Shown piece by piece: positions 29,684 to 31,069 of a DNA stretch of 43,516 nt. The stretch is from Actinomycetes bacterium. Its GTDB lineage: Bacteria > Actinomycetota > Actinomycetes > Nanopelagicales > Nanopelagicaceae. A program made the position numbers and the translations under genes. Within the stretch, counting starts at the first letter, position 1; every line of letters starts with the position of its first letter. Where the stretch lies: positions 1 through 43,516 of the forward strand of contig JANYCW010000040.1 in the NCBI GenBank assembly GCA_025360085.1. Reading direction: 5' to 3'. Under the pieces are notes generated by a model. The model was not told where the DNA came from, made no database searches, and worked only from the letters and a program-made list of their open reading frames with translations.

Positions 29684-29719
29684 GCCACTTCTTCAATTTC
29701 ACCGATTGGCCTAACCTCA

Positions 29720-29883
29720 GGTAACCTTACCCACAGACCAGTGGCCTAAACGCTCACTGCAAGAGGAGTTACCGCTCCCACCTACATCGCCATTCGTGCG
29801 ATCTGGTTTGTCGGATATAGGAATTACATTCCTTGTCGACCTGCGGTTTTCTTTTTGCAAACGCGTTAACACCACTAGCGTTT
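29720..29883 (+). promoter_or_regulatory. Hairpin-rich 5' leader of infC operon
   Basis: The gap 29684-29904 holds a run of short perfect hairpins: GGTA/TACC (29720-29731), CAGTG/CACTG (29739-29759), GGAG/CTCC (29765-29778), ATCGC/GCGAT (29786-29802), AGGAAT/ATTCCT with a TAC loop (29819-29833) enclosed by GTCG/CGAC (29810-29840), and AAACGC/GCGTTT (29859-29883). No T-run. Consistent with a cis-regulatory leader controlling infC-rpmI-rplT, as known in other phyla; the mechanism here is unknown. Confidence 0.5.
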
Positions 29884-29904
29884 ACTAAACCAAAGGAGCA
29901 CACA

Positions 29905-30495
29905 GTCAGCACAGAGCCGCGCATCAATGATCGCATTCGCACACCACAAATCCGCTTGATCGGTCATACCGGCCAACAAATTGGGGTTGTCGATATCGAT
30001 ACCGCGTTAAAGATGGCAGATGAGGTGGGACTCGACTTAGTCGAAATCGCCGCAGAAGCTAATCCACCCGTTTGCAAGATTATGGACTTCGGAAAATATA
30101 AGTACGAAGTTGCACAAAAAGCTCGGGAGGCGCGGCAAAACCAGACCCACATTGTGGTCAAGGAGGTGCGTTTAACACCAAAGATTGAGACACATGATTA
30201 TGAGACTAAACGTAATCAAGTTGAGAAATTTCTTAAAGGTGGCGACAAAGTGAAAGTGACTATGAAGTTCCGAGGCCGTGAGCAAACGCGTCCTGAGCTT
30301 GGATACAAAATGCTGCAACGTTTGGCAACCGACATTGCAGAGTTTGGATTCATTGAATTCGCTCCAAAACAGGAGGGGCGAAATATGACCATGGTAATCG
30401 GACCGACAAAGAAGAAAACAGAGGCAGTTGCAGAAGCTAAGGCGGCACGTAAAGCCAAAGCAGATGCAGCAGCAGAGACAATGGATGGAGCATAA
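29905..30495 (+). CDS. infC: Translation initiation factor IF-3, likely GTC start
   Basis: Binds the 30S subunit, keeps subunits apart and rejects wrong start codons. 196 residues if started at 29905. N-domain begins [11 protein letters not shown], as in actinobacterial homologues, then [19 protein letters not shown], the linker [17 protein letters not shown], and the C-domain [20 protein letters not shown] with [11 protein letters not shown]; the tail is Lys/Ala-rich. The conserved N terminus is reached at a GTC codon (29905-29907) placed 6 bases after AAAGGAG (29892-29898). A TTG at 29833 would add 24 unconserved residues without a ribosome-binding site; the first internal Met would remove much of the N-domain. 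A rare start codon fits IF-3 self-control, known for AUU in E. coli. Confidence 0.93.
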
Positions 30496-30497
30496 AG

Positions 30498-30695
30498 ATG
30501 CCAAAGATGAAAACGCACAGCGGAGCTAAAAAGACTTTCCGCGTTACAGGAACCGGGAAGATCATGCACGAGCGCGCTGGTAAGCGACACTTGCTCGAGC
30601 GTAAATCCTCACGCGTTACACGCCGTCTATCAACCGAACAGTCAGCAAAACCAACCGTCACAATGACAGCCAAGCGCATGCTTGGTCTAAAATAA
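30498..30695 (+). CDS. rpmI: 50S ribosomal protein L35
   Basis: Small basic protein of the large ribosomal subunit. 65 residues: [20 protein letters not shown] at the start and a C terminus rich in Lys/Arg are diagnostic. GGAG inside the end of infC precedes ATG 30498, two bases after the infC stop. Part of infC-rpmI-rplT. Confidence 0.97.
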
Positions 30696-30709: not shown

Positions 30710-31069
30710 ATGAGAGTAAAACGTGGTGTTCACGCCGCAAAAAAGCGTCGTACAACTTTAGAGCGTGCCAGCGGATATCGCGGACAACGCTCACGTCTTT
30801 TCACAAAGGCGAAAGAGCAAGTTACGCATTCAATGGTCTATGCATTCAATGACCGTAAAGATAAGAAGGGCGATTTTCGCCGTCTCTGGATTCAACGAAT
30901 AAATGCGGGCTGCCGTTCACACGGATTGACCTATAACCGTTTCATCCAAGGTCTCAAAATTGGCGGTGTTGAAGTAGATCGCCGCGTTCTCTCTGATATG
31001 GCAGTTAATGATCCTGCAACTTTCAAGGTTCTTGTAGATCTTGCTCGCAAGAACCTTATTTCAGCGTAA
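30710..31069 (+). CDS. rplT: 50S ribosomal protein L20
   Basis: rRNA-binding assembly protein of the large subunit, autoregulatory in several bacteria through the infC operon leader. 119 residues; [30 protein letters not shown] and [19 protein letters not shown] are family blocks. AAGGAG at 30694-30699 supports ATG 30710. Confidence 0.97.

Follow-up and report, generated by a model that had tools for sequence, protein, structure and literature searches.

IF3 destabilizes initiation complexes in which codon-anticodon pairing is imperfect. Autogenous control of infC, the gene encoding this factor, uses an AUU start codon in E. coli and an ATC start codon in Streptomyces (PMC5472188; PMC1805508), and an AUA start was assigned to S. 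aureus infC by ribosome profiling (PMC13009471). A GTC start has been reported for the Streptomyces gene sigR, which is repressed by IF3 in vivo (PMC5472188). In that system, replacement of GTC with a stop codon abolished the protein and replacement with canonical start codons raised it, while SigR levels fell with extra IF3 and rose in IF3 fidelity mutants (PMC5472188). An IF3-repressed GTC start has thus been demonstrated in an actinobacterium.

The window analyzed here, meaning the whole stretch of 43,516 nucleotides, is part of a 1.63-Mb draft genome in 61 contigs, and its closest named records were "Candidatus Planktophila" and other Nanopelagicaceae, which are small freshwater actinobacteria. 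A FabI-type enoyl-ACP reductase gene lies upstream of infC, and the gene order infC-rpmI-rplT is present, with the following features.

29892..29898, plus strand: Shine-Dalgarno (SD) sequence AAAGGAG, six bases (CACACA) before GTC (GGAG-N6-GTC in 27 of 27 GTC genomes)
29905..29907, plus strand: GTC start codon of infC (GTC in 27 of 107 genus genomes, ATC in the other 80)
29905..30495, stop included, plus strand: infC, encoding IF-3, 196 amino acids from GTC (TIGR00168)
30498..30695, plus strand: rpmI, encoding ribosomal protein L35, directly 3' of infC (TIGR00001, E 7.7e-20)
30710..31069, plus strand: rplT, encoding ribosomal protein L20 (TIGR01032, E 5.8e-42)

The reading frame is open from GTC to the stop ending at 30495, and the protein translated from GTC matched TIGR00168 (infC) over profile positions 3 to 170 of 170 (E 5.9e-66), the single infC match to this profile in the whole genome. 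At the sequence level, the gene belongs with the infC genes described above: it encodes IF-3, has a non-canonical start codon and a strong SD sequence, and lies in an infC-rpmI-rplT operon. With infC of E. coli (AUU) and Streptomyces (ATC), it shares the gene itself, the rpmI-rplT order, the strong SD sequence, the mismatch at codon position 3, and the absence of a canonical start; it differs in that GTC also wobbles at position 1 and in that its autocontrol is proposed by analogy. The same GTC codon, the same phylum, and a strong SD sequence link it to Streptomyces sigR (PMC5472188), but sigR is a sigma-factor gene and another target of IF3, whereas the infC loop would close on itself. S. aureus infC is likewise non-canonical with an SD sequence but has AUA, an extended SD sequence, and a host in another phylum (PMC13009471). 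The 16S 3' end was searched for in the genome and was not found, probably because it is unassembled, and that search is uninformative about the presumed pairing of the infC SD sequence with 16S.

The genus set comprised 135 genomes, of which 111 had an infC match and 107 a readable infC N terminus. GTC followed by the conserved N terminus was matched in 27 of the 135 genomes, and no codon other than GTC or ATC was found at the infC start among the 107 readable genes. ATC was also found at all 50 loci from other genera of the family. The first-pass annotation had placed AAAGGAG six bases before GTC, which the sequence confirmed, and the spacer from GGAG to GTC had this length in every GTC genome; it was one base shorter in 79 of the 80 ATC genomes (the exception being G191). 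Relatives with ATG or GTG at this site, the check named in that annotation, were absent from the 107 genomes. In the sequences compared, GTC has taken the place of an ancestral ATC throughout a clade and is no peculiarity of a single genome.

After removal of the start codon, a tree of infC DNA was built from 141 rows (22 GTC and 73 ATC rows from the genus and 46 from other genera), leaving out genomes with fewer than 480 bases of infC as well as G005 and G051. The tree required one start-codon change, with the GTC rows forming one side of a branch within the ATC rows, and this single origin within ATC rows indicates that ATC is ancestral. The branch uniting the GTC rows was recovered in 90% of 200 bootstrap trees, and its support was modest (87/54) in the careful tree. 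Comparison of neighbors across the branch (CACAAATC on the ATC side versus CACAAAGTC on the GTC side) suggests that one inserted base, converting CACAAATC to CACAAAGTC, could at once have created GTC and extended the spacer from five to six bases.

Conservation around the start codon was compared with fourfold degenerate sites. Within the GTC clade, the SD sequence, bases -1 and -3, and the start codon were invariant, and bases upstream of about -18 changed as often as fourfold sites, or more. Since 8 of 59 fourfold sites in this clade were also unchanged (mean, 3.39 changes), the constant third base of the start codon is by itself weak evidence of selection. Unchanged fourfold sites numbered 0 of 50 in the genus ATC rows and 0 of 21 in other genera; the ATC rows were picked by codon and thus show zero codon change by construction, the point being that no third codon occurred in the 107 genomes. 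The SD sequence of the GTC clade (AAGGAG) was not extended in comparison with the ATC relatives; the weaker codon thus has no visible compensation, which counts against the explanation favored below. The IF3 proteins of the GTC and ATC clades differed at residues including 144, 148, and 105, and nothing in this comparison was tied to codon recognition.

Start codons in the wider phylum were called in a sample of 149 genomes, 146 of which had infC, by tblastn anchoring and an SD-based start caller applied to 130 loci. The caller is rough and returned calls for 120 of the 130 loci, leaving 10 without a call. Called starts were ATC (43), ATA (37), GTA (12), GTC (11), ATT (6), and others (11). In total, 117 of the 120 were NTN codons not ending in G, and the remaining three ended in G (TTG in 2, CTG in 1); as a comparison, G was the third base of 31.3% of 5,583 NTN codons inside infC genes. 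Some calls were probably wrong, including GTC in families f25 and f44, CTT in f27, and TTA in f22; in f27 and f22, an ATA or ATC adjoins the called codon. In family f13, from another class of the phylum, all 11 genomes had either GTC (8; L179, L184, L186, L191, L199, L200, L202, and L339) or GTA (3; L180, L193, and L340). These starts followed a strong SD sequence, in most cases extended and of the type GGAGGTGAT, and, with a single exception, the rows displayed with a stop in this region had it in frame, three codons before the start. In family f16, GTA appeared to be the start in all 9 infC genes read, out of 12 (L253, L360, L361, L362, L367, L368, L372, L374, and L377). As an outside control, loci of alphaproteobacterial type had ATA (29 of 31) or ATC (2 of 31) before a conserved ARRPH start. 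The first-pass annotation had described GTC as a rarely described solution; that description held, and the rarity itself perhaps did not, as GTC or GTA infC starts recurred in at least two other families sampled. In one genus of family f10 (g87; L219, L222, and L343), the sole SD-placed infC codon appeared to be TTC or TTT, six bases after AAGGAGGTG.

The explanation that we favor, and consider likely, is that infC in this genome and clade starts at GTC with the ordinary fMet initiator tRNA and that rejection of this codon by IF3 provides autogenous control inherited from the ATC start. Pairing of GUC with the CAU anticodon would be poor, combining a G-U wobble at the first position with a C-C mismatch at the third, and for this reason IF3 would reject a 30S complex formed on GUC. 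Initiation at GTC would then rise when IF3 is scarce and fall when it is plentiful, which would be the control loop known from the AUU start in E. coli and the AUC start in Streptomyces. Having inherited an ATC start, the clade would have turned it once into GTC and retained a start rejected by IF3. From known infC biology and the Streptomyces sigR experiment, we infer IF3 control of the GTC start; use of GTC by the ribosome, fMet as the first residue, and IF3 as the regulator are each put forward conditionally. By the same analogy, GTC probably serves to limit the production of IF3 through IF3 itself. An in vitro study in which first-base non-Watson-Crick pairs were not tolerated among the combinations tested, although GUG with CAU worked at 73.8% (PMC10158994), counts against this explanation.

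GTC could instead be the start codon and simply set a low rate of translation, with no IF3 feedback. Weak start codons lower output by themselves, and non-canonical starts in S. aureus gave about 10% of AUG output (PMC13009471). We regard this alternative as unlikely, as the gene product is the very factor that rejects such codons, third-base G was avoided across the phylum sample, and repression of a GTC start by IF3 is known in Streptomyces (PMC5472188).

Initiation at a canonical codon upstream, giving a protein with an N-terminal extension, is very improbable. In the window the upstream frame is open as far as TTG 29833, its sole ATG, GTG, or TTG, 24 codons before GTC, and in 20 of the 27 GTC genomes at least one canonical codon occurs upstream of GTC before an in-frame stop is reached. 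However, these candidates lie at differing distances (-8 to -37 codons) in a region whose bases vary as freely as fourfold sites, and a canonical codon 24 codons upstream was found in the window only (0 of the 26 other GTC genomes). By eye, TTG 29833 has no SD sequence comparable to AAAGGAG. In seven of the 27 GTC genomes (G035, G042, G053, G057, G151, G158, and G167), the stretch from GTC back to the first in-frame stop contains no ATG, GTG, or TTG, so an upstream canonical start is impossible in those seven and is refuted for them; in G053 and G057, this stop is six codons before GTC. In many ATC relatives, a TAA stop overlaps the SD sequence itself. Downstream, the first in-frame canonical codon is TTG 29956 (residue 18) and the first ATG is at 30013 (residue 37); an internal start at either codon was rejected because it would remove the conserved RINDRIR. 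The view in the first-pass annotation that no ATG, GTG, or TTG gives the right N terminus is accordingly borne out, and its assignment of the infC start to GTC is supported, on sequence comparison, by the position of the codon, its conservation in 27 genomes, its exact replacement of the ATC of all other relatives read, and the seven genomes with no upstream alternative.

A special initiator tRNA with a GAC anticodon, which would read GUC as cognate, is known to work as an engineered version in E. coli (PMC2268962). The genome contained two identical initiator tRNA copies (L393 and L394), both at contig ends, with the GGG/CCC anticodon stem and a CAU anticodon. All 35 tRNA matches in the genome were run, and 8 of the sequences were inspected directly; none of these 8 was an initiator with a GAC anticodon, and the inspected Val-type tRNAs lacked the initiator GGG/CCC stem. 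We therefore consider a GAC initiator highly improbable here. In the same genome, three odd tRNA-like genes with similar D arms and unusual anticodon loops were found near the end of contig C55 (positions 42772, 47301, and 47807), which ARAGORN assigned as Val-gac, Val-aac, and unassigned (cgcg).

The window comes from a draft assembly, but a sequencing or assembly error for ATC or GTG has a negligible probability and is refuted by the occurrence of GTC with the shifted spacer in 27 of 107 genomes, including one in a single contig (G109), and by the GTC start in five named public records (L059, L060, L061, L068, and L081).

Upstream of infC, a conserved structured leader RNA was observed at window positions 29717 to 29860, with the following elements.

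29734..29813, plus strand: leader domain of three hairpins with GAC/GUC closure (81.5 bits with covariance model R1)
29758..29775, plus strand: possible alternative long helix, 5' arm (TGCAAGAGGAGTTACCGC), which overlaps leader hairpins 1 and 2 (minimum free energy [MFE] fold and duplex versus shuffles)
29843..29859, plus strand: possible alternative long helix, putative 3' arm (GCGGTTTTCTTTTTGCA), rich in U (MFE fold and duplex versus shuffles)

A scan of 153 leaders for the short strings CAGACC/AGACCAGT plus GAGGAG/CTGCAAG found them in 106 of 107 leaders in the genus and in 8 of 46 from other genera; the one genus leader without them had 76 bases of upstream DNA. Thirty-five rows were chosen for alignment and 33 were kept (L054 and L169 were dropped); in this alignment, 98.6% of cells were paired, and 6 of 20 pairs had changes on both sides. 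Such double-sided changes filled 35 cells, compared to 10.0 in shuffles, of which 0 of 500 reached 35, and sliding the partner by one base lowered pairing below 39%; several helices were invariant and hence uninformative on pairing. Fold stability was not unusual for the start region folded alone (z 0.38) or for the whole leader (z -1.66), so the claim of leader structure rests on the alignment. In other genera, model R1 matched 44 of 50 loci (including 7 that were part of the model); it also matched 4 of 4 further named Nanopelagicaceae-like loci, with weak matches in 3 of 18 other actinobacterial loci and a match in 1 of 65 loci of other classes (L268).

The pairing of 29758 to 29775 with 29843 to 29859 was the MFE structure and is exclusive of the hairpin domain. 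The corresponding duplex was stronger than base-shuffled controls in 20 of 27 GTC, 52 of 64 ATC, and 7 of 8 other-genus leaders (99 of 114 leaders were tested). The infC-rpmI-rplT operon probably has a leader of the attenuator type, which may be of the L20 kind. Rfam scanning of the window around infC gave no match at E up to 10, and the Scr1601 and L20_leader cutoffs were not reached. The Rfam L20_leader (RF00558) also lies upstream of infC-rpmI-rplT, but the window leader had no match to it; among the relatives, only L004 showed a weak L20_leader match, which covered the whole model with 28.4 bits (cutoff, 58.7; E 0.031) and was absent in a second scan. Scr1601 (RF02830), listed as a Streptomyces sRNA and reported in untranslated regions of S. 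ambofaciens (PMC8388888), shares with the window leader the three-hairpin domain and CAAG.GGAG...CUCCCACCU. This was seen in the Streptomyces-like locus L254, one of the three weak actinobacterial matches, where R1 matched at 510 to 582 (E 0.0051) inside an Scr1601 match at 485 to 708 (184 bits). Scr1601 differs in having a long terminator hairpin, which the window leader lacks in that form.

A broader reading is offered tentatively, as a possibility that we rate somewhat below even. The infC start across the phylum may be selected solely for a wrong third base against CAU, with the first base free to be A, G, or T, so that the codon would wander among ATC, ATA, ATT, GTC, GTA, and perhaps TTC or TTT and almost never become NTG. 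Each codon would then set another level of the IF3 balance, and the Planktophila clade would represent a natural, dated reset by one inserted base, beneath a leader RNA controlling the same operon.

Non-canonical infC starts have long been known, and the GTC variant is apparently new: a GTC start for infC was not found in the largely open-access journal literature searched. A 2020 study of genes preferring non-AUG starts by Gvozdjak and Samanta reportedly names infC and may hold codon counts bearing on this novelty. The change from ATC to GTC occurred inside a single genus, whose members are very small bacteria abundant in lakes, and GTC or GTA was found in two other families. The infC genes involved are naturally matched, differing only by the start codon and one spacer base; comparing them could show whether IF3 measures position 1 or position 3 and in what way the codon determines the set point of the loop. 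Gene callers restricted to ATG, GTG, and TTG will misplace infC starts throughout the phylum, as has already been stated for Streptomyces (PMC5472188).

Irregular infC records were also observed. At L305 (G005), the infC match was in two overlapping pieces (profile positions 3 to 114 and 57 to 170) within one open frame of 255 codons, which reflects either a repeat of about 58 codons inside the gene or a fault in the assembly. The infC gene at L117, in a record titled Enemella evansiae (an actinobacterium), was of the Rhodobacteraceae type, which suggests that this assembly is contaminated.
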